Shown one piece after another: positions 10,609 to 29,224 of a stretch of 39,269 nucleotides of DNA. The first letter of the stretch is position 1, and the number at the start of each line of letters is the position of its first letter. Source of the DNA: a virus. The position numbers and the translations under genes were made by a program. The stretch is taken from the IMG/VR virus record IMGVR_UViG_3300005541_000012, positions 1 to 39,269 of that record. One strand, given 5' to 3'. The notes under the pieces are model-generated. The model was not told the origin of the DNA and ran no database searches. It saw only the letters and a list, made by a program, of their open reading frames with translations.

Positions 10609-10681
10609 GGGCCGGGCGACGGGTCGCGGTCGATCCCTGCAAGATCGATGGCATAGGGTTCAACTCCCTGACGGTCCACCA
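10609..10681 (+). tRNA. tRNA-Ala(TGC)
   Basis: Acceptor GGGCCGG/ACGGTCC with the alanine-specific G3:U70 pair. Anticodon loop CCTGCAA has C33 instead of U33. Short D-loop CGGG; T-loop TTCAACT. CCA encoded. Confidence 0.85.
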
Positions 10682-10682
10682 T

Positions 10683-10757
10683 GCGGATATAGCTCAGTGG
10701 TCGAGCAGCGCGTTGCCAACGCGCCGATGAGGGGTTCGATTCCCCCTATCCGCTCCA
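10683..10757 (+). tRNA. tRNA-Gly(GCC)
   Basis: Canonical cloverleaf. Acceptor GCGGATA/TATCCGC, D-loop AGTGGTC, anticodon loop TTGCCAA, T-loop TTCGATT, U73, CCA encoded. Confidence 0.95.
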
Positions 10758-10761
10758 ACAC

Positions 10762-10856
10762 GGTCGCTGGCTCTGGTGAGCGGGTGCGCCTTATAAGCGC
10801 GCGAGAGCGGGCGGACGGCCTGCGACGGGTGGGTTCGACCCCCACGGCGACTACCA
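10762..10856 (+). tRNA. atypical long-arm tRNA, anticodon TAT (Ile?)
   Basis: Acceptor GGTCGCT/GGCGACT, T-arm GTGGG-TTCGACC-CCCAC and CCA are clear. Anticodon loop CTTATAA on TGCGC/GCGCG gives TAT (codon AUA). The D-arm is GCTC-TGGT-GAGC with a 4-base loop, and a long variable region of about 27 bases contains GCGGGC/GCCTGC. Isoleucine tRNAs are normally short-armed, so charging identity is uncertain. Confidence 0.6.
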
Positions 10857-10857
10857 A

Positions 10858-10929
10858 AGCGGGAAGCCTCAGAGGCCAGCGAGTCTCATAAACTCGCCAT
10901 AGAGGGTGCGACTCCCTCTCCCGCCACCA
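10858..10929 (+). tRNA. tRNA-Met(CAT) or Ile2
   Basis: Anticodon loop CTCATAA. Position 1:72 is an A-C mismatch, recalling initiators, but the anticodon stem CGAGT/ACTCG lacks the initiator GGG/CCC. Minimal D-arm (loop TCAGA: AG instead of GG) with T-loop TGCGACT (G55). CCA encoded. Confidence 0.75.
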
Positions 10930-10933
10930 ATCG

Positions 10934-11009
10934 GCCGACGTAGCAATGATGGTTCATGCACGCGCCTGAAGAGCGCAGGATCTCCGTTCGATCCGGAGCG
11001 TCGGCACCA
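10934..11009 (+). tRNA. tRNA-Phe(GAA)
   Basis: Acceptor GCCGACG/CGTCGGC. D-loop contains TGGTT, anticodon loop CTGAAGA, T-loop TTCGATC, A73, CCA encoded. Confidence 0.93.
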
Positions 11010-11012
11010 CTC

Positions 11013-11088
11013 GCGTCCTTAGTAGTTTGGGAACTGCCTTGGGCTTCCAACCCAATGATGCTCGGTTCGATTCCGGCAGGACGCTCCA
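11013..11088 (+). tRNA. tRNA-Gly(TCC)
   Basis: Acceptor GCGTCCT/AGGACGC. D-stem GTAG/CTGC with loop TTTGGGAA, anticodon loop CTTCCAA, T-loop TTCGATT, U73, CCA. Confidence 0.93.
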
Positions 11089-11094
11089 CGTTGA

Positions 11095-11170
11095 TCCCTA
11101 CAGACGAACATGGCGGACGTACCTGACTGTTAATCAGGGTAGCGAGGTTCGATTCCTCGGTAGGGAACCA
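11095..11170 (+). tRNA. tRNA-Asn(GTT)
   Basis: Acceptor TCCCTAC/GTAGGGA. D-loop AACATGGCGGA, anticodon loop CTGTTAA, T-arm CGAGG-TTCGATT-CCTCG, CCA. Confidence 0.93.
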
Positions 11171-11173
11171 ATT

Positions 11174-11246
11174 GCACCCGAGCTGAAGCCAGCAACGCGG
11201 TCTCCAAAACCGCCGTTCGTGGGAGCGTTACCTACCGGGTGTGCCA
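11174..11246 (+). tRNA. tRNA-Trp(CCA)
   Basis: Acceptor GCACCCG/CGGGTGT, G73. Anticodon loop CTCCAAA on GCGGT/ACCGC. Minimal D-arm GCTG-AAGC-CAGC lacks GG; T-loop AGCGTTA has A54, G55 and U58. D- and T-loops are changed together. CCA encoded. Confidence 0.85.
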
Positions 11247-11249
11247 ATT

Positions 11250-11324
11250 CGACCGCGAGCCAGCAAGTGCAGGCGTCGGTCTGCAAAACCGAATAGCGCG
11301 GTGCGATACCGCGGCGGTCGTCCA
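11250..11324 (+). tRNA. tRNA-Cys(GCA)
   Basis: Acceptor CGACCGC/GCGGTCG, U73 as expected for Cys. Anticodon loop CTGCAAA. D-loop AGCAAGTGCA has AG for GG; T-loop TGCGATA has G55. CCA encoded. Confidence 0.9.
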
Positions 11325-11325
11325 T

Positions 11326-11402
11326 GGCGATGCGACTCAGCTAGTGAAGAGGCCCGGCTGTGAACCGGGCACCGACGAGTGCAATCCTCGTGCATCGCCC
11401 CA
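11326..11402 (+). tRNA. tRNA-His(GTG)
   Basis: Encodes the histidine hallmark G-1 (11326) opposite C73. Acceptor GCGATGC/GCATCGC, anticodon loop CTGTGAA. D-loop AGCTAGTGAA has AG where AGCTGGT is usual; T-loop TGCAATC has G55. CCA encoded. Confidence 0.92.
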
Positions 11403-11407
11403 GTTAC

Positions 11408-11482
11408 GCCGTCATCGTTCAGTGGCAGGACAGCCGCCTTGTAAGCGGCTAACGGAGGTTCGATCCCATCCTGGCGGCACCA
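11408..11482 (+). tRNA. tRNA-Thr(TGT)
   Basis: Acceptor GCCGTCA/TGGCGGC, D-loop AGTGGCA, anticodon loop CTTGTAA, T-loop TTCGATC. T-stem has one internal mismatch. CCA encoded. Confidence 0.9.
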
Positions 11483-11485
11483 TTC

Positions 11486-11560
11486 GGCGGTTTAGAGGGT
11501 GGGCCCTCCGCGCGGCTCTGACCCGCGTAGAAGACAGTTCGATCCTGTCGACCGCTTCCA
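11486..11560 (+). tRNA. tRNA-Gln(CTG)
   Basis: Acceptor GGCGGTT/GACCGCT, D-stem GAGG/CCTC with loop GTGGGC, anticodon loop CTCTGAC on CGCGG/CCGCG, T-arm GACAG-TTCGATC-CTGTC, CCA. Confidence 0.9.
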
Positions 11561-11563
11561 TTT

Positions 11564-11637
11564 GGCGCGCTCGTTCAATAGCAGGACGCAAGCCTTTGAA
11601 GCTTGCTATCGTGGTGCAAATCCACGGCGCGCTTCCA
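11564..11637 (+). tRNA. tRNA-Gln(TTG)
   Basis: Acceptor GGCGCGC/GCGCGCT. Anticodon loop CTTTGAA on CAAGC/GCTTG. D-loop AATAGCA (usual form AATGGCA) and T-loop TGCAAAT, so GG to AG pairs with U55 to G55. CCA abuts the next tRNA with no spacer. Confidence 0.9.
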
Positions 11638-11714
11638 CGCCCGTTCGTCTAGCGGTTCTGGACATCCGCCTCTCAAGCGGAAGGTGTCGGGGTCAGCACC
11701 CACACGGGCGGCCA
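11638..11714 (+). tRNA. tRNA-Glu(CTC)
   Basis: Acceptor CGCCCGT/ACGGGCG, G73 usual for Glu. D-loop AGCGGTTCT, anticodon loop CTCTCAA. T-stem is weak (three firm pairs) and T-loop GTCAGCA has G54 and G58 but keeps U55-C56. CCA encoded. Confidence 0.85.
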
Positions 11715-11718
11715 TTTT

Positions 11719-11793
11719 GCGGGTGTGGCGCACGGCGACGCACGCGGGCTTAAACCCCAGCGGTTTAGGGTTCGACTCCCTACACCCGCACCA
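11719..11793 (+). tRNA. tRNA-Leu(TAA), short variable arm
   Basis: Acceptor GCGGGTG/CACCCGC, D-loop CACGGCGA, anticodon loop CTTAAAC with an imperfect stem (bulged A), T-arm TAGGG-TTCGACT-CCCTA, CCA. Lacks the long variable arm of bacterial leucine tRNAs. Confidence 0.75.
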
Positions 11794-11797
11794 ATTT

Positions 11798-11874
11798 GCG
11801 CGCGTATCCCAACCGGCAGAGGAACGACGTTGAGAACGTCGCGAGTGTGCGTTCGAATCGCACCGCGCGCACCA
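11798..11874 (+). tRNA. tRNA-Leu(GAG), short variable arm
   Basis: Acceptor GCGCGCG/CGCGCGC, D-loop CAACCGGCAGA, anticodon loop TTGAGAA on CGACG/CGTCG, five-base variable loop, T-loop TTCGAAT, A73, CCA. Confidence 0.9.
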
Positions 11875-11875
11875 T

Positions 11876-11953
11876 GCGCCCGTAGACCAATCGGTAGGAG
11901 TCATGACGTTCAGACCGTCAGCAGTGTCGGTTCGAATCCGACCGGGCGTACCA
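11876..11953 (+). tRNA. tRNA-Leu(CAG), short variable arm
   Basis: Acceptor GCGCCCG/CGGGCGT, D-loop CAATCGGTAGGA, anticodon loop TTCAGAC on TGACG/CGTCA, short variable loop, T-loop TTCGAAT, A73, CCA. Confidence 0.9.
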
Positions 11954-11959
11954 ATTCAA

Positions 11960-12045
11960 GGAGGGTGCCGGTGCATGGGCGCCAAACGGTCCCGAAAACC
12001 GTGGATGCTTTCGGGCATAGGGTTCGATTCCTTCACCCTCCGCCA
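11960..12045 (+). tRNA. tRNA-Ser(CGA)
   Basis: Acceptor GGAGGGT/ACCCTCC, G73 and a long variable arm, all serine features. Anticodon loop CCCGAAA on ACGGT/ACCGT has C33. T-loop TTCGATT. CCA encoded. Confidence 0.88.
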
Positions 12046-12050
12046 TTTCC

Positions 12051-12143
12051 GGAGCGCGCAAGCCGTCAGGCGACGGCGCTGGTTTGCTAAACCGTGCGTG
12101 CGGCGTTAAGTCGCATGGGTTTCGAATACCCGCCGCTCCGCCA
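12051..12143 (+). tRNA. tRNA-Ser(GCT)
   Basis: Acceptor GGAGCGC/CCGCTCC, G73, D-loop GTCAGGCGAC, anticodon loop TTGCTAA, long variable arm, T-loop TTCGAAT, CCA. Confidence 0.88.
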
Positions 12144-12146
12144 TTC

Positions 12147-12220
12147 GCCCCTGTAGCACAATGGTAGTGCATCGCTTTGGTAAGGCGAGGATCACGGGTC
12201 AGTACCGTGCCGGGGCTCCA
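12147..12220 (+). tRNA. tRNA-Thr(GGT)
   Basis: Acceptor GCCCCTG/CCGGGGC, D-arm GCAC-AATGGTA-GTGC, anticodon loop TTGGTAA. T-loop GTCAGTA carries G54 and G58 but retains U55-C56. CCA encoded. Confidence 0.9.
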
Positions 12221-12223
12221 TTC

Positions 12224-12308
12224 GAGTCGGGAAAGCTGATGGTTTCAGCGAGCGGTCTGTAAAATCGCGCCCTGCGGGGGAGCAGTTCGATTCTGCACCG
12301 GCTCACCA
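12224..12308 (+). tRNA. tRNA-Tyr(GTA)
   Basis: Acceptor GAGTCGG/CCGGCTC, D-arm GCTG-ATGGTTT-CAGC, anticodon loop CTGTAAA, long variable arm, T-loop TTCGATT, A73, CCA. Confidence 0.92.
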
Positions 12309-12309
12309 C

Positions 12310-12385
12310 GGTCCTTTAGCTCAACGGCTGAGAGCACGCGGCCGATAACCGCGCGATCACGGTTCGACCCCGTGAAGGACTACCA
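12310..12385 (+). tRNA. tRNA-Ile(GAT)
   Basis: Acceptor GGTCCTT/AAGGACT, D-arm GCTC-AACGGCTGA-GAGC, T-loop TTCGACC. Anticodon loop CCGATAA on CGCGG/CCGCG: C33 replaces the near-universal U33. CCA encoded. Confidence 0.92.
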
Positions 12386-12390
12386 ATGCG

Positions 12391-12465
12391 GGGGGCATAG
12401 CTCAATGGCAGAGCTACCGCCTCTTAAGCGGCAGACCGCGGGTTCGATTCCCCGTGCCCCTACCA
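12391..12465 (+). tRNA. tRNA-Lys(CTT)
   Basis: Acceptor GGGGGCA/TGCCCCT, D-loop AATGGCA, anticodon loop CTCTTAA, T-loop TTCGATT with a partly mismatched T-stem, A73, CCA. Confidence 0.9.
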
Positions 12466-12466
12466 T

Positions 12467-12541
12467 GCACCGTAAGCCAACTGTTGGAGGCCCCGCCCTG
12501 TCACGGCGGTTAGACGGGTTAGATCCCCGTACGGTGCGCCA
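12467..12541 (+). tRNA. tRNA-Asp(GTC)
   Basis: Acceptor GCACCGT/ACGGTGC, G73. Anticodon loop CTGTCAC. D-loop AACTGTTGGA has GT in place of GG and T-loop TTAGATC has A56, so U19-A56 can replace G19-C56. CCA encoded. Confidence 0.9.
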
Positions 12542-12546
12542 GTTTC

Positions 12547-12621
12547 CGGCGTGTAAGTCAGCAGCAGACGGAATGCTTTGGGAGCATTCAGACGGGGGTG
12601 CAAGTCCCTCCACGCCGACCA
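12547..12621 (+). tRNA. tRNA-Pro(TGG)
   Basis: Starts with C1:G72, typical of bacterial proline tRNAs. Anticodon loop TTTGGGA on AATGC/GCATT. D-loop AGCAGCA (AG for GG), T-loop TGCAAGT (G55). CCA encoded. Confidence 0.92.
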
Positions 12622-12624
12622 ATT

Positions 12625-12698
12625 GCCCATGTGCCGCCGAGACGGCGCCGACGGTCCTAACGTTGGGAAGCCGGGTTTGACTCCCGGCATGGGCTCCA
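12625..12698 (+). tRNA. tRNA-Arg(CCT)
   Basis: Acceptor GCCCATG/CATGGGC. Anticodon loop GTCCTAA. Small D-loop CCGAGA and T-loop TTTGACT: A19-U56 can replace G19-C56. CCA encoded. Confidence 0.88.
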
Positions 12699-12699
12699 G

Positions 12700-12775
12700 C
12701 GGGGCGTGGGTCAGCAGCTAGACCGCCTGTCTCGGACACAGGAAATCGCGAGTGCAAGTCTCGCCATCCCGACCA
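12700..12775 (+). tRNA. tRNA-Pro(CGG)
   Basis: C1:G72 start. Anticodon loop CTCGGAC on CCTGT/ACAGG. D-arm GGTC-AGCAGCTA-GACC (AG for GG), T-loop TGCAAGT (G55). One acceptor mismatch. CCA encoded. Confidence 0.9.
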
Positions 12776-12778
12776 TTT

Positions 12779-12852
12779 GGGCGATTAGTAGACTGGTAGA
12801 ACACCTGGCCTACACCCAGGAGAAGAGGGTTCGATTCCTTCATCGCCTACCA
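12779..12852 (+). tRNA. tRNA-Val(TAC)
   Basis: Acceptor GGGCGAT/ATCGCCT, D-loop ACTGGTA on a weak stem, anticodon loop CCTACAC on CCTGG/CCAGG with C33, T-loop TTCGATT, CCA. Confidence 0.9.
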
Positions 12853-12857
12853 TTTCG

Positions 12858-12931
12858 CGAGCGGTCGTCTAAGGAAGGACACTTGCCTTTCAAGCAGGGA
12901 AACGCGGGTTCAAATCCCGTCCGCTCGACCA
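12858..12931 (+). tRNA. tRNA-Glu(TTC)
   Basis: Acceptor CGAGCGG/CCGCTCG, D-loop AAGGAA, anticodon loop CTTTCAA, T-arm GCGGG-TTCAAAT-CCCGT, A73, CCA. Confidence 0.9.
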
Positions 12932-12934
12932 ATT

Positions 12935-13007
12935 GCCCCGTCCGGCGGACCCGGCGGCTCGGCTACGAACCGGGCTAGTGTGAGTTCGACTCTCTCACGG
13001 GGCTCCA
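12935..13007 (+). tRNA. tRNA-Arg(ACG)
   Basis: Acceptor GCCCCGT/ACGGGGC. Compact D-arm CCGG-CGGAC-CCGG, anticodon loop CTACGAA, T-loop TTCGACT, CCA. Shares the compact D-arm form with the next two Arg tRNAs. Confidence 0.9.
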
Positions 13008-13014
13008 TCTTCAC

Positions 13015-13086
13015 GGCCCATCCGGTGGAACCGGAGTTTGGTCTTCTAAACCGAAACAGCGGGTTCGATTCCTGCATGGGTCGCCA
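13015..13086 (+). tRNA. tRNA-Arg(TCT)
   Basis: Acceptor GGCCCAT/ATGGGTC. Compact D-arm CCGG-TGGAA-CCGG, anticodon loop CTTCTAA, T-loop TTCGATT, G73, CCA. Confidence 0.9.
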
Positions 13087-13089
13087 ATT

Positions 13090-13162
13090 GCGCTCGCCAG
13101 TGGATCTGGCACCTGGCCTCCGAAGCCGGGACGCGGTGGTTCGATTCCACTCGGGCGCTCCA
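13090..13162 (+). tRNA. tRNA-Arg(CCG)
   Basis: Acceptor GCGCTCG/CGGGCGC. Compact D-arm CCAG-TGGAT-CTGG, anticodon loop CTCCGAA on CTGGC/GCCGG, T-loop TTCGATT, CCA. Confidence 0.9.
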
Positions 13163-13165
13163 TTC

Positions 13166-13240
13166 GCGCGGTTGGTGCAACAGCAGACACGTCCGTCTCA
13201 AAAGCGGATTCGCCCGGAGCATTACCGGGACCGCGCACCA
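13166..13240 (+). tRNA. tRNA-Leu(CAA), short variable arm
   Basis: Acceptor GCGCGGT/ACCGCGC. Anticodon loop CTCAAAA. D-loop CAACAGCAGA (usual CAACGGCAGA) and T-loop AGCATTA (A54, G55, U58): both loops changed together. Variable loop of four bases. CCA encoded. Confidence 0.88.
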
Positions 13241-13245
13241 TCTCG

Positions 13246-13319
13246 GCCGGTGTGGTGTAATTCAGCATTACCGCCTTTTAAGCGGTCAGGTCTCGGCGAA
13301 ACTCCGGGCACCGGCACCA
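13246..13319 (+). tRNA. tRNA-Lys(TTT)
   Basis: Acceptor GCCGGTG/CACCGGC. Anticodon loop CTTTTAA on ACCGC/GCGGT. D-loop AATTCA has TC for GG and T-loop CGAAACT has G55-A56. CCA encoded. Confidence 0.87.
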
Positions 13320-13323
13320 TTTC

Positions 13324-13398
13324 GCTCCTGTAGTTCAATGGTAGAATAAGGCCCTCGTAAAGCTTAGATCGCGGGTTCGATTCCCCGCAGGAGCACCA
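13324..13398 (+). tRNA. tRNA-Thr(CGT), carries the HNH ribosome-binding site
   Basis: Acceptor GCTCCTG/CAGGAGC, D-loop AATGGTA, anticodon loop CTCGTAA with one stem mismatch, T-loop TTCGATT. The 3' acceptor strand contains AGGAG (13389-13393), six bases before the ATG of the HNH gene. Confidence 0.88.
13389..13393 (+). promoter_or_regulatory. ribosome-binding site inside tRNA acceptor stem
   Basis: AGGAG with a 6-base spacing to ATG 13400. It is paired with the 5' acceptor strand in the folded tRNA, and lost from the message if the tRNA is excised. Confidence 0.65.
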
Positions 13399-16028: not shown

Positions 16029-16727
16029 ATGGCACGGTATTTCGGTTATCTCAGGGCATCGACGCAGGATCAGGTCGCCGATGGCAAGACGACGCTCGAG
16101 GATCAGGAGCGGCGTGTGCGTGGCTCAGCGATGGCGCGCGGCGGCGAGATCGCGCGGGTGTTCTCGGACCCCGGCGTCTCGGGCTCCGTGCCGCTGGCCA
16201 AGCGTCCCGGCGGAACCGCATTGCTGGCCGAGCTCCGGCCCGGCGACATCGTGATCGCGGCGAAGCTCGACCGGCTGTTCCGGTCGGCATCCGACGCGCT
16301 GACCACCGTGGAAGCCCTACAGAAGCGCGGCATCGGGGTGATCCTCGCCGACATCGGCACGGACCCCGTGACCGAGAACGGCGCCGCCAAGCTGTTCTTC
16401 TCGATGCTGGCCGCGTTCGCCGAGTTCGAGCGGGGACGCATCGCGGAACGCATGGCGGACGGCCGGCGCGGCAAGAAGCGGCAGGGCGGCTTTACCGGCG
16501 GCGCGGTGCCCTACGGCTTCCGGGCCGAGGGCGTCGGGCGCGCCGCCGTGTTGCTACCGAACACCGACGAACAGCGCGTCATCGGCTTGGCCCGCGACGC
16601 CCGCTCAAGCGGCTCGACGGTGCGCGAGATCGCGCGTAGGCTGACCGAGGCTGGCATCGTCAGCCGCGCCGGTCGTCCGTTCGACCCGACGCAGGTTCAC
16701 CGGATGATCAAGGAGAGGGCTGCATGA
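16029..16727 (+). CDS. serine recombinase (resolvase/invertase family), 232 aa
   Basis: Resolvase domain: MARYFGYLRASTQDQVADGK with catalytic S11 and R9, then DPGVSGS, RPGDIVIAAKLDRLFRSASD and GRIAERMADGRRGKKRQGG, the conserved Arg region and arm. The C-terminal part (EQRVIGLARDARSSGSTVRE, IARRLTEAGI) is a helix-turn-helix. Small size matches DNA invertases/resolvases, not large integrases. It may resolve multimers, invert a segment or integrate the phage. It overlaps the next gene (ATGA). Confidence 0.85.
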   Translation: MARYFGYLRASTQDQVADGKTTLEDQERRVRGSAMARGGEIARVFSDPGVSGSVPLAKRPGGTALLAELRPGDIVIAAKLDRLFRSASDALTTVEALQKRGIGVILADIGTDPVTENGAAKLFFSMLAAFAEFERGRIAERMADGRRGKKRQGGFTGGAVPYGFRAEGVGRAAVLLPNTDEQRVIGLARDARSSGSTVREIARRLTEAGIVSRAGRPFDPTQVHRMIKERAA

Positions 16728-19519: not shown

Positions 19520-21433
19520 ATGGCCGGTCGCCGCTCACGCAGCAAAACGAAATGGCTCGATGTCTTCCTCGAGTTCGTCCGCGATCTCCGAATCGACAGC
19601 AAGGAGGAGACCGCCGAGGACGACAAGGGCACGCCGCTGAACCTGTGGGGATCGCAGCGGCGGTTCTTGGAAAATCTCGCTATTGGGCTCGAAAAAGACA
19701 TCAGGACATTCATTTGTCTTAAGAGCCGCCAATTGGGCTGTACGACGATTTCGCTCGCCATCGATGTTTTCTGGATGGCCATGTACCCCGGCACCAAGGG
19801 CGCGCTCGTCGTCGATACCGAGGCCAACCGAGAAGACTTCCGTCGCACGCTGCGCCGCTACATCAACAGCTTCCCGCAAGGCTATTTCGGCGAAGACTTC
19901 CGCATCATCAAAGGCGGCGACAACAAAGACGGCATGACGTTTTCGAACGGCAGCAAGCTCGTGTTTCTTGTCGCCGGCAAATCGAAGACGCGCGTGAACT
20001 GGGGCGAGGGCAAGGGCTTCTCTTTCGCGCATCTTAGCGAGGTTTCCAAATACGGCAGCGTCGAAGGTTTGAAGAACTTCGAGGAAGCACTGGCGCAGAA
20101 AAACCCTGACCGGCTCGTGATATACGAGTCGACAGCGAATGGCTTCAACTTCTTCCGCGACCGTTGGCTCGAAGCCAAGTCCGATCCCTTCGTTCAGCAC
20201 GCTTTCTTCATCGGCTGGTGGGCGAATCCGATGAACAGCATCAGCCGTGACGATCCGCGGTTCGATCAGTTCGGCACCAAGTATGCCAGCGGTGAGGAAC
20301 GCGAGTTGATCAAGGCGGTGCTGGATCAGTACGAGCATCGGGTGACGCCGGAACAACTCTGCTGGTATCGCTGGCGCGAGGCGCAGGCCGCTAAGTCCGG
20401 CGCCGATCTGCTCGATCAAAACCAGCCATGGGTCGAGCAGCAGGCGTTCATCGCGACCGGCTTCTCGTTCTTCCAAATCCGCAAGATCAGCGAGGACTTG
20501 CAGCGGTTGTCGGCCGGCGGCCCAGAGGAATCGCAGTTTCTCGGCTATCGGTTCGAATGCGAGAACGATTTTTTCGCGATGAAGATGTTGCAGGAGACCG
20601 AGGATGTCGATCGTGTCCAACTTCGCGTATGGGACACGCCCGTGCCTGGCGGGAAGTATGTCATCGGGGCTGATCCGGCCTACGGTCGTAACGCACATAA
20701 GGATCGTCACGCATGCTCGATTTGGCGATGCTTCGCCGATCATCTCGTCCAAGTCGCTGAGTTTGCCGCTGCCGATATCGAGGTCAAACATTTTGCCTGG
20801 ATCCTCGCGTTTCTGGCCGGTGCGTATTCCGACTGCATGGTCAACATTGAACTCGCCGGCCCTGGTCGCATGATCATGCCGGAGTGGGATCATATCCGCG
20901 GCATGCTGGTCTCCGAGCACTACGCCGCGAAGGTGAAGAATTGGAGCTGGGACGATGCGCTCAACAATGCGCGCTGGTATCTCTATCACCGGCCCGACTC
21001 GCCCGGTCCCGGCTTCGCGTACAATTTCGAAGGCGGCTGGCGCACGATCCAAATGGTGTTCCACCAGTTCCGCGGCGCCTATTCGACCGGCGAGCTCGTG
21101 CTGAAGTCGGTCAAGCTGCTGCACGAGATGCGGATCGTGGTGCAGGAAGGCGAGCACATCGGAGCGCCGGAATCGCGCAACGAGGACAGCAAGGACGATC
21201 GGGTCTATGCTGCGGCGCTGGCGAACCGATCGTGGATCGACTGGCGCCGCGCCGAGTTGATGGCCGAAGGCAAGATGTACAAGGCCGTCATGGAGGAGGA
21301 GAGCGGCAAGGCGTCGCTGCAGACGCAGCGGCTCAACCGTGTGGTCTATAATTTCTTCCGGCGCGCGGAGGAGGAGGTTGATGATTTTCCCGATCTTCGT
21401 CCGCGTTGGAAAACGGACAGGGGGCTGGCATGA
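19520..21433 (+). CDS. terminase large subunit, 637 aa
   Basis: DNA-packaging motor. N-terminal ATPase: IRTFICLKSRQLGCTTISLA, with Walker A-like KSRQLGCTT (68-76), and Walker B region near GALVVDTEANRED; SVSKYG-type and IYESTANGFN motifs follow (RLVIYESTANGFNFFRDRW). C-terminal nuclease: YVIGADPAYG (Asp near residue 384) and acidic EDSKDDRVYAAALA. Length and motifs match terminase large subunits. No small subunit is obvious in the window; the J-domain protein precedes it. Coupled to the next gene by ATGA. Confidence 0.9.
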   Translation: MAGRRSRSKTKWLDVFLEFVRDLRIDSKEETAEDDKGTPLNLWGSQRRFLENLAIGLEKDIRTFICLKSRQLGCTTISLAIDVFWMAMYPGTKGALVVDTEANREDFRRTLRRYINSFPQGYFGEDFRIIKGGDNKDGMTFSNGSKLVFLVAGKSKTRVNWGEGKGFSFAHLSEVSKYGSVEGLKNFEEALAQKNPDRLVIYESTANGFNFFRDRWLEAKSDPFVQHAFFIGWWANPMNSISRDDPRFDQFGTKYASGEERELIKAVLDQYEHRVTPEQLCWYRWREAQAAKSGADLLDQNQPWVEQQAFIATGFSFFQIRKISEDLQRLSAGGPEESQFLGYRFECENDFFAMKMLQETEDVDRVQLRVWDTPVPGGKYVIGADPAYGRNAHKDRHACSIWRCFADHLVQVAEFAAADIEVKHFAWILAFLAGAYSDCMVNIELAGPGRMIMPEWDHIRGMLVSEHYAAKVKNWSWDDALNNARWYLYHRPDSPGPGFAYNFEGGWRTIQMVFHQFRGAYSTGELVLKSVKLLHEMRIVVQEGEHIGAPESRNEDSKDDRVYAAALANRSWIDWRRAELMAEGKMYKAVMEEESGKASLQTQRLNRVVYNFFRRAEEEVDDFPDLRPRWKTDRGLA

Positions 21434-24888: not shown

Positions 24889-26664
24889 TCAATGCGGCTT
24901 GGTCTTCCCAGCGCCCCTCGCCGCGATCTCGGGATGCGCGGCCAAGAATGCGGCCTGCTCGGCTTCGCGGCGCTCGATGTCGGCGATGAGCGCTTCGGGA
25001 TCGGGCGCATCGACGTGGCGCACCACCTCTTCCTTCGACATGGCACCGATCTTGAACAGGTCGAACGCGAGGCCGCGCGCTTCCTGCGCAAAGGCCGGCG
25101 ACGATGAATGCGAGTCCACGGTGACGCGGACATTCGAAGGCAGATTGCCATAGAGGAAATGCACCGGCACGAGTCCCGGCGCTGGGGCCATATAGATTTC
25201 GCTCGGCTGCTCGGCTTCGATGCCGGCGAACTTCTGCGGCACCCAGGCCGTGAGCTTGTCGGCGTTGTGCGCCTTCTGGATGTCGAGCGCGAGCCCGCCG
25301 AACTTCTCGACGTTGCGCTCGATCAGCACCGCACGATCCTTGAAGCGCGGCGAGAACATCCGCACCAGCGTCTCGGCATGCGCCTGCGACCGGACACCGG
25401 CCTCGCCGCGGCCCTTCGCGATCGGCGGCAGACCACCCATCTCGTCGAACATCCGTTCGTATTCGTGCAGCGCTTGGAACAGGTCTTGGTCGAGCGGCGG
25501 CGTCATGTTCTCGATCTTGGCGTTCGGATTGCTGTCGGCGAAATACCCGCCCGGCCGGCTAAGCCGTGACAGTGCGAGCTGGTTGACGCCCGTGGTGCCG
25601 GTGAATTTCTTCGGCGGGTCTTCCTGCATCCGCAACAGACCATTGATGCCGTTGATGCGGGAGTTGATCGCGATCTGAAGCAGCGCGACGTTATCGATCT
25701 CGGAGCGACCCCAGTAGTAATTATCGATCGGATTGGCGCAGAACTCGACGAAGGGATGATGCCCCTTCAGATGCTCGTTGCTCCTGCCAGTTGACGGATT
25801 GTAAGCGAACGCGTTGCAGATGAAGTCCTCGCCCAGGATCATCAGCTTGTCGCCGATCATCTGGAACGTCGCCCAGTCCTCCCTCTCGGTATCCCACACC
25901 CAAAGCTCGTCGAGCCGCAGCAAGGTCTGCATGACACGCGGCGACAGCTTCGGCGACGGGCCGCCCATCCAGTCCACGATGCCGCGGGTATTGTTCGGCG
26001 TCCCGCTGCCCTGCGGCTGAAACGGATAGAGGCCGCCGATGATGATCTGCTTCATCGCGGCCTCGTCCTTGGGGTCGTCGCCCTTCCCCGGACGCATGTA
26101 CATCTTCGCCTTGCGCATGATCTCGGCGCGGTTCGAGTTGTTCCAGACGCGGCGCTCGAGTTGGTACGGCGTGATGTACGTCGAATGGACGAACGCCTCC
26201 ATGTTCTCGTCAAGATGACCGAGATTTTCCTGCAGGACACCCATCGCCTCGGGCTGCACCAGATAGGGATGCAATTCGCCGCGGTCGACGAGCAGCTTCG
26301 CGAACGCCTTGCCCTTGACCAGCGACCACAGCACGCCGTCGGAGATCAGGGTATCGCTGTCGGACTGGCGGATCTTGCTGTGCAGATCGGACGCCGCCGC
26401 CGTGCCCTTCGCACGATCAACCGGATTCGGCGCTCCATAAAACTCGACGTTAAAGCGCAAGCCTACCGGCGAATAGAGCAGCGAGTTGAGATCGTCGAGA
26501 TAGGCAAAAGTCTTGTTGTAAATCGCCGCGTCGCCGCCCTCATCGCCGCTGAGAAATACATTGCGATAGGAGATGCCGCGGTCGATGCGCTCCCGCCGCG
26601 ATATCAGACAGTCCTCGATCAATTCCGATGCGAATTTGGCGAGACGAGAGCGCGGGATGCGCAT
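24889..26664 (-). CDS. portal protein, 591 aa
   Basis: Long protein starting MRIPRSRLAKFASELIEDCL, with HHPFVEFCANPIDNYYWGRS, then DNVALLQIAINSRINGINGL, a C-terminal wing and helical ring, and an Ala/Glu-rich end. Length and segments fit portals of short-tailed phages, which form the dodecamer through which DNA enters. It lies on the minus strand although terminase and capsid genes are on the plus strand, which is unusual. RBS is weak (GGATGG). Confidence 0.75.
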   Translation of the reverse strand: MRIPRSRLAKFASELIEDCLISRRERIDRGISYRNVFLSGDEGGDAAIYNKTFAYLDDLNSLLYSPVGLRFNVEFYGAPNPVDRAKGTAAASDLHSKIRQSDSDTLISDGVLWSLVKGKAFAKLLVDRGELHPYLVQPEAMGVLQENLGHLDENMEAFVHSTYITPYQLERRVWNNSNRAEIMRKAKMYMRPGKGDDPKDEAAMKQIIIGGLYPFQPQGSGTPNNTRGIVDWMGGPSPKLSPRVMQTLLRLDELWVWDTEREDWATFQMIGDKLMILGEDFICNAFAYNPSTGRSNEHLKGHHPFVEFCANPIDNYYWGRSEIDNVALLQIAINSRINGINGLLRMQEDPPKKFTGTTGVNQLALSRLSRPGGYFADSNPNAKIENMTPPLDQDLFQALHEYERMFDEMGGLPPIAKGRGEAGVRSQAHAETLVRMFSPRFKDRAVLIERNVEKFGGLALDIQKAHNADKLTAWVPQKFAGIEAEQPSEIYMAPAPGLVPVHFLYGNLPSNVRVTVDSHSSSPAFAQEARGLAFDLFKIGAMSKEEVVRHVDAPDPEALIADIERREAEQAAFLAAHPEIAARGAGKTKPH

Positions 26665-28153: not shown

Positions 28154-29224
28154 ATGGCGTTCCCAACGACAGTCGTCCCGCCCATCACCGGCTCCGGCCT
28201 CGTCCCCGGCGGCGCGCTGGGCGCACAGTTGGCGGCCCTAACTAGAAGGGCGTTTATACCGTCCGTTTTCGTCCAAATCTACCAAGCACACCCATTGCTG
28301 AGCTTGGTGATGTCCAACGCGCAGACGGCGCGCGGCGGCATCAGCCAGGTGACCATCCCGGCGCAGGGCCAGTCGTTCGTCCAGTTCAATTGGGGCAGCT
28401 TCGCGGGCGACTTCCCGATGCCGACGGACGCCGCGGCGATCCAGAACGCGCAGTTCAACCTCAAACTCGGCATGGTGCCGATCGGCTTCTTCGGGATGGA
28501 AGCGATCTTGCAGTCGAGCGAGGTGGTGATCCCGAAGCTGCGGGCCGTGATGTCGGACGCCGCCGTGGTCATCAAGCAGGCTTACGCGCAGGCGCTTTAC
28601 ACCAACAACACCGGCAATCCGTCGGCGTGGGATTCGCTGGCGAACGCCTATGACGACGGCACCAACTCGCCGACCTATGGCGGCATCGCACGCGCCGGCA
28701 ATACGTGGTGGAACGGGCAACTGATCCAGTCCGCCGGCAACGGGCCGACAAGCCGTGTCGGCATGGCGCAGCTCATGACGCGTGTCATGTCCGGTGCCGG
28801 CGGCGAGGCCGGCGACTTCGCGGTGATGAACCCCGCGAACTGGGCCGTGCTGATGGGCGACTTCATGAACCTCGAGATGTTCACGACGCGCCCGCGCTCG
28901 ATCTACGACAAGGATGATGTCGTCAACGCCGGCTTCCGCGCGATCCGCGTCGTCGACACGCCGATCTTCCCCGACCCATTCTGCCCGGTCGGCGAGATGT
29001 ACATCATCAATTCACGCTACCTCGCGCTCTACATGTCGGAATACGCGCCGATGACGTTCAGCGGCTTCGAGTCGCAGATCCCGGTCGGCCAGATTTCCGA
29101 CATCGGTGTGCTGATCTCGTGCGCCGATCTCGTCTGCGCGAAGCCGTCATCGGGCGCGCACATCACCGGAATTACCGGCGTGGCTTGGCCGAACGTGCCT
29201 GGCACCGTGCCGGCCGTGATCTAA
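28154..29224 (+). CDS. major capsid protein, 356 aa
   Basis: N-terminus MAFPTTVVPPITGSGLVPGG then AALTRRAFIPSVFVQIYQAH; the middle includes GMEAILQSSEVVIPKLRAVM and MSGAGGEAGDFAVMNPANWA; the end has APMTFSGFESQIPVGQISDI. Size, composition and place after a scaffold identify it as the capsid protein. The order scaffold-capsid-head proteins is standard. It is a P22/podovirus-type capsid by context; the exact fold cannot be told. Confidence 0.85.
   Translation: MAFPTTVVPPITGSGLVPGGALGAQLAALTRRAFIPSVFVQIYQAHPLLSLVMSNAQTARGGISQVTIPAQGQSFVQFNWGSFAGDFPMPTDAAAIQNAQFNLKLGMVPIGFFGMEAILQSSEVVIPKLRAVMSDAAVVIKQAYAQALYTNNTGNPSAWDSLANAYDDGTNSPTYGGIARAGNTWWNGQLIQSAGNGPTSRVGMAQLMTRVMSGAGGEAGDFAVMNPANWAVLMGDFMNLEMFTTRPRSIYDKDDVVNAGFRAIRVVDTPIFPDPFCPVGEMYIINSRYLALYMSEYAPMTFSGFESQIPVGQISDIGVLISCADLVCAKPSSGAHITGITGVAWPNVPGTVPAVI

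Follow-up and report, generated by a model that had tools for sequence, protein, structure and literature searches.

In the canonical elbow of transfer RNA (tRNA), G18 of the D-loop contacts pseudouridine 55 (Psi55) of the T-loop, G19 pairs with C56, and T54 pairs with A58. G18, G19, U55 and C56 are textbook invariants and, because they are invariant, are hardly testable by covariation. The Steinberg group (Zagryadskaya et al. 2003; Doyon et al. 2004) reportedly obtained functional suppressor tRNAs from D/T-loop libraries with purine-purine combinations at 54-58, such as G54-G58, and with altered loop-loop contacts; those came from selecting an E. coli suppressor in the laboratory, whereas the variants described here occur naturally, as genes of phages, tRNA arrays and housekeeping sets. 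The outer 19:56 pair belongs to the elbow touched by RNase P, the ribosomal L1 stalk and T-boxes (PMC4810234, PMC4919913). In eukaryotic tRNA-Ala(AGC) and initiator tRNA, which have A54/A58, the tertiary pairs 54:58 and 15:48 likewise change in concert, but the available part of that source reports no changes at 18:55 or 19:56 and concerns other pairs in other organisms (PMC7566577). Densely packed tRNA genes carried by viruses or mobile elements are known from phage and bacterial arrays (PMC6409571, PMC5966550) and the Anabaena trn operon (PMC10272220); term searches of two array surveys turned up neither the T-loop nor non-canonical elbows. Natural A18/G55 tRNAs were not described in the literature searched, in which subscription journals were thinly covered. 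Here we report on an array of 35 tRNA genes in IMG/VR virus record IMGVR_UViG_3300005541_000012, analyzed over its whole 39,269 bases (the window). Eleven of these genes have an altered elbow, and positions 18:55, 19:56 and 54:58 change together in housekeeping tRNAs as well as across numerous arrays that are unrelated.

G18-G19 was absent from 11 of the 35 window tRNAs and U55-C56 from exactly the same 11, and the remaining 24 retained both. The eleven do not have the canonical elbow and carry matched alternatives in its place. This division, which a preliminary description of the array had already drawn, was confirmed by cloverleaf scan and hand reading. The probability of a chance split of 11/11 versus 0/24 is 2.4e-9, a naive value that does not count kinship among the genes, and for that reason the independent data given below outweigh it. 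The variant elbow shares with the canonical one its positions, its D- and T-loop architecture and a complementary 19:56. It differs at 18:55, where A·G (or C-G or U·G) stands in place of G·U, in allowing G·G, A·U or C·A at 54:58, and in having no Psi55 site.

Eight genes, all on the plus strand like the others listed here, carry A18-G19 with G55-C56, as previously named: tRNA-Met(CAT) (10858..10929, short D-arm), tRNA-Trp(CCA) (11174..11246, shifted D-arm), tRNA-Cys(GCA) (11250..11324), tRNA-His(GTG) (11326..11402), tRNA-Gln(TTG) (11564..11637), tRNA-Pro(TGG) (12547..12621), tRNA-Pro(CGG) (12700..12775) and tRNA-Leu(CAA) (13166..13240). The 18/19 assignment is clear in the last six. The readings given earlier for tRNA-Asp(GTC) (12467..12541; G18-U19 with U55-A56) and tRNA-Arg(CCT) (12625..12698; shifted D-arm, G18-A19 with U55-U56) also stood. 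For tRNA-Lys(TTT) (13246..13319), only half of the earlier reading, UC with G55-A56, was retained: the T-loop has C54-G55-A56, but the D-loop AAUUCA, when aligned on the Glu-UUC model (AAGGAA), is best read as U18-U19, and the 19:56 pair is therefore restored in Lys too. Changes at 54:58, which are additional to the preliminary description, were found in four window tRNAs. These were G/G in tRNA-Glu(CTC) (11638..11714) and tRNA-Thr(GGT) (12147..12220), both canonical at 18-19 and 55-56, and A/U in Trp (A54-G55-C56-G57-U58) and Leu-CAA (A54-G55-C56-A57-U58). The other 31 of 35 kept U54/A58 or C54/A58, a count of base identities and not of pair geometry.

Predictions were fixed before a large sample was collected. 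The bait was a tRNA-His pattern with G55; an earlier, looser His pattern gave mostly loci with no cloverleaf, and a tightened one was used, which returned 42 loci from IMG/VR and 45 from GTDB genomes, mostly Verrucomicrobiota arrays. An elbow-blind cloverleaf scan, with the bait His and near-duplicates removed, yielded a pooled set of 371 tRNAs, including 12 from the window and 28 from Erythrobacter and Caulobacter phages. The 18-19 dinucleotide was as predicted from 55-56 in 350 of the 371, all D-loop lengths taken together, compared with an average of 183 and at most 212 when the set was shuffled 2,000 times among tRNAs of equal D-loop length. For 7-nucleotide D-loops, in which the register is clearest, the combinations were AG/GC (55), GG/UC (42), AU/GA (4), GA/UU (2) and GU/UA (1), and A18 with U55 did not occur among the 115 tRNAs with D-loops of this length. 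Mutual information among annotated non-helix pairs was highest for 54:58 and 18:55, with 15:48, 19:56 and 8:14 behind and also high. G55 was distributed over most amino acids with no targeted set, and both elbow types occurred together on 46 of 81 contigs.

The combinations at 54:58 in the pooled set were U/A (284), G/G (34), A/U (28) and C/A (16), and those at 8:14 were U/A (278), A/A (34), G/G (17) and A/U (15). Positions 8 and 14 thus change together, as 54 and 58 do. In canonical tRNA each of the two is a U·A trans pair, and the alternative series at 8:14 resembles that at 54:58 in the window array and in the pooled set.

A forward test left the T-loop free. IMG/VR was searched with a fixed consensus D-arm in which the 18-19 bases were varied, and the T-loop was read from the cloverleaves downstream. 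A18G19 was followed by G55C56 in 34 of 34 cases, G18A19 by U55U56 in 30 of 36, and G18C19 by U55G56 in 3 of 4. The 18:55 coupling is without exception in the A18 forward sample; the 19:56 coupling is strong, not absolute. The preliminary description had held that D- and T-loop changes occurring independently in homologous arrays would speak against its case; such independence was looked for, and coupling was found in the pooled set and in the forward sample. The forward matches L523, L571, L572 and L603 have a tRNA-like cloverleaf in which the D-loop is AGYGTTA and U33 is missing (the loops include TGTTTAA, TAAATAA and AGAAAAA), and they may be non-decoding tRNA mimics.

The same elbow was found outside arrays. 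Seven metagenome-assembled genomes (MAGs) of Bacilli have a non-array tRNA-His with A18G19/G55C56, and in two of the seven the gene adjoins a chromosomal M18 aminopeptidase gene. One of these two, G004, has 44 Rfam matches representing 40 distinct tRNAs, a near-complete set, and encodes TruB. A single tRNA-His and a single tRNA-Phe were detected in it, both A18/G55 and the Phe also C54/C58; its Pro-CGG has G18A19/U55U56. Within the order of G004, a His match was present in 123 of 147 genomes, with GUGC limited to G001, G004 and G028 and GUUC in nearly all others; canonical His tRNAs that could be read in that order had GG in 23 of 23. The variant His and the nearest canonical His share the larger part of the D-arm and the anticodon arm, but their bases at 18 and at 55 are both different. 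The sole His and Phe tRNAs of some gut bacteria apparently use the swapped elbow. Together with the coupling, this supports the earlier proposal that the covariation reflects functional tRNAs under selection.

The lone chromosomal-type tRNA-His of another Bacilli MAG (G003) has the A18/G55 elbow, and a second, canonical tRNA-His with no encoded CCA lies on a contig with a tRNA cluster (C89:4142-4837; L841, L803). In G027, a tRNA-His match that looked canonical proved to be coding-like sequence, not a cloverleaf, and was rejected. The T-loop TCCGA (C55) occurs with G18-G19 in L130, L145, L147, L155 and the Gly tRNAs of G004, which suggests G18-C55 as an additional 18:55 pair type.

Our favored interpretation, drawn from the sequences and held with good confidence, is that these are decoding tRNAs with a functional alternative elbow, in which A18·G55 would replace G18·Psi55 and 19:56 would stay complementary, a state reached by compensatory change. 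In the commonest swap A18 lies opposite G55 with G19-C56 unchanged; in rarer swaps 19:56 is U-A, A-U or C-G instead, and G·G, A·U or C·A can stand in for the U54·A58 pair that closes the T-loop. A18 would lie between 57 and 58 as G18 normally does and would bond to G55, preserving the L-shape. The complementary change at 19:56 would maintain the outer face presented to RNase P, the L1 stalk and T-boxes. U55, and often U54 and G18, would be lost as targets of TruB, TrmA and TrmH; for TruB this had been pointed out before and follows directly from the absence of U55. The alternative elbow is, on the best reading, common in mobile tRNA arrays. As the driver, compensatory drift between structurally equivalent states, best tolerated in mobile stand-by arrays, is the simplest and most likely candidate.

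Several points weigh against this interpretation. The driver is its least supported step. The 19:56 coupling is incomplete: G18U19 was followed by U55A56 in just 2 of 10 forward cases, with 7 having UC, and several of the G18U19 cloverleaves have no U33 and may be non-decoding. In the pooled set, 21 of 371 tRNAs violate the rule, some with C or U at 18 facing G55 and some with uncertain register. The contigs of the first large sample were picked by means of a G55 tRNA-His, and frequencies may still be inflated with the bait removed. Within the window, 18/19 in Met, Trp and Arg-CCT had to be inferred from short or shifted D-arm registers. Finally, the MAGs are incomplete, so that the description of a variant as the only tRNA-His could fail.

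A search of IMG/VR with the large terminase subunit found no relatives. The major head protein, used in the same way, led to 20 virus records that encode a related one; tRNAs are present in 5 of these, and 15 show none. One relative, G009, has a 28-tRNA array in which every tRNA read by the scan has a canonical elbow. These two results led us to reject the elbow as a trait fixed throughout the virus clade. Among cultured phages, Erythrobacter phage vB_EliS-L02 has tRNA-Cys with A18-U19/G55-A56 and tRNA-Val with A18-G19/G54-G55-C56-A57-G58, and Salicola phage SCTP-2 has an alternative elbow in Lys. The T-loops read in Caulobacter RB23, Salmonella SPAsTU and Streptomyces FlowerPower and CeilingFan were all canonical, save for one spurious RB23 match. 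Chthoniobacter flavus has dispersed, high-scoring tRNAs besides its array, and the array is therefore supernumerary there.

Adaptive evasion is an unlikely explanation with some points in its favor. The altered elbow would put virus and array tRNAs out of reach of the host's modification enzymes or of tRNases recognizing or cutting the T-loop (T54/Psi55), leaving them intact while host tRNAs are destroyed. A tRNase toxin is known to cut the T-loop between T and pseudouridine (PMC9086364), jumbo-phage tRNA arrays have been proposed to counter tRNA-cutting defenses (PMC7824862), RtcB and Ro60/TROVE genes are among the array neighbors, and the TruB and TrmA targets are necessarily gone once U55 and U54 are lost. 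However, 24 of the 35 tRNAs of the same array have the canonical elbow, mixed contigs are frequent, the close relative G009 is canonical throughout the tRNAs read, and Bacilli housekeeping tRNAs have the same elbow alongside TruB. The spread of G55 over most amino acids also led us to reject evasion specific to particular isoacceptors. We consider it decidedly improbable that loss of U55, G18 and often U54 is a selected device that hides viral tRNAs from host elbow-modifying enzymes and T-loop-reading or T-loop-cutting tRNases, and that some bacteria fixed it in essential tRNAs to the same end. The preliminary description had raised resistance to tRNA-cutting nucleases; this gained no further support and is plausible only.

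Common descent alone would have one ancestral A18/G55 tRNA duplicating and changing its anticodon, with the two loops structurally unlinked. Array tRNA genes can duplicate and switch anticodon, and related sequences inflate covariation, but near-identical sequences were excluded here, and unrelated contigs show the elbow in most of their isoacceptor families. Moreover, related pairs differ at both positions simultaneously (the Phe tRNAs of L152 and L155; Bacilli His), and AU/GA, GA/UU, GU/UA and GC/UG follow the same logic; we regard this explanation as very improbable. Even more remote is the idea that the variants are tRNA-like genes that are decaying or do not decode, as the short or shifted D-arms and the genes that score low in Rfam or are overlooked by ARAGORN might suggest, because decay is not expected to produce matched changes at 18:55, 19:56 and 54:58, the stems are kept, U33 and the CCA ends are intact in all eleven (which do not classify as non-decoding elements), the identity bases are in place (G-1:C73 in His, C1:G72 and A73 in Pro, U73 in Cys), and bacterial genomes appear to depend on such tRNAs.

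Hundreds of natural tRNAs varying in matched pairs support the elbow contacts by comparison and yield a rule for their alternatives, and tRNA tertiary contacts become visible through covariation. With the Psi55 site missing from apparently working tRNAs, the purpose of Psi55 and T54 becomes testable in natural molecules, and elbow sets become available for orthogonal tRNA design. Elbow variation also accounts for standard tools overlooking part of viral arrays: ARAGORN overlooked 4 and Rfam, at the gathering score, 7 of the 11 variants. For the whole window set, ARAGORN detected 24 and Rfam RF00005 at the gathering score 16 of the 35.

The 35 genes were identified by cloverleaf scan and hand reading at about 10609-13398, beyond the 10858-13319 of the preliminary description, in one orientation (plus) over 2.8 kb with short spacers. 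They serve all 20 amino acids, encode CCA at every gene end, and fit the RF00005 architecture (stems of 7/3-4/5/5 base pairs, 7-nucleotide anticodon and T-loops, CCA end). Their adjacency on a contig with a large terminase subunit (19520-21433) and a major head protein (28154-29224) identifies a phage tRNA array. Going by published work on such arrays, its role is most likely to sustain translation once host tRNAs become scarce or damaged. In BLAST searches of phages and plasmids, matches to the array spanned just one to three tRNAs. An HNH endonuclease gene lies immediately past the array end, and a serine recombinase is encoded at 16029-16727. A 591-amino-acid open reading frame on the minus strand (24889-26664) has a strong coding signal, lies opposite the structural gene block that contains it, and had no match in a PHROGs search.

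Genes of note also adjoin other arrays. A Ro60/TROVE gene and a gene with a Lon-protease domain adjoin elbow-variant tRNAs in the Chthoniobacter flavus array (L359, 13135-14169 and 10142-12103), a Ro-like gene is also present in a Streptomyces phage with many tRNAs, and RtcB and HslV genes lie near the Erythrobacter phage arrays.

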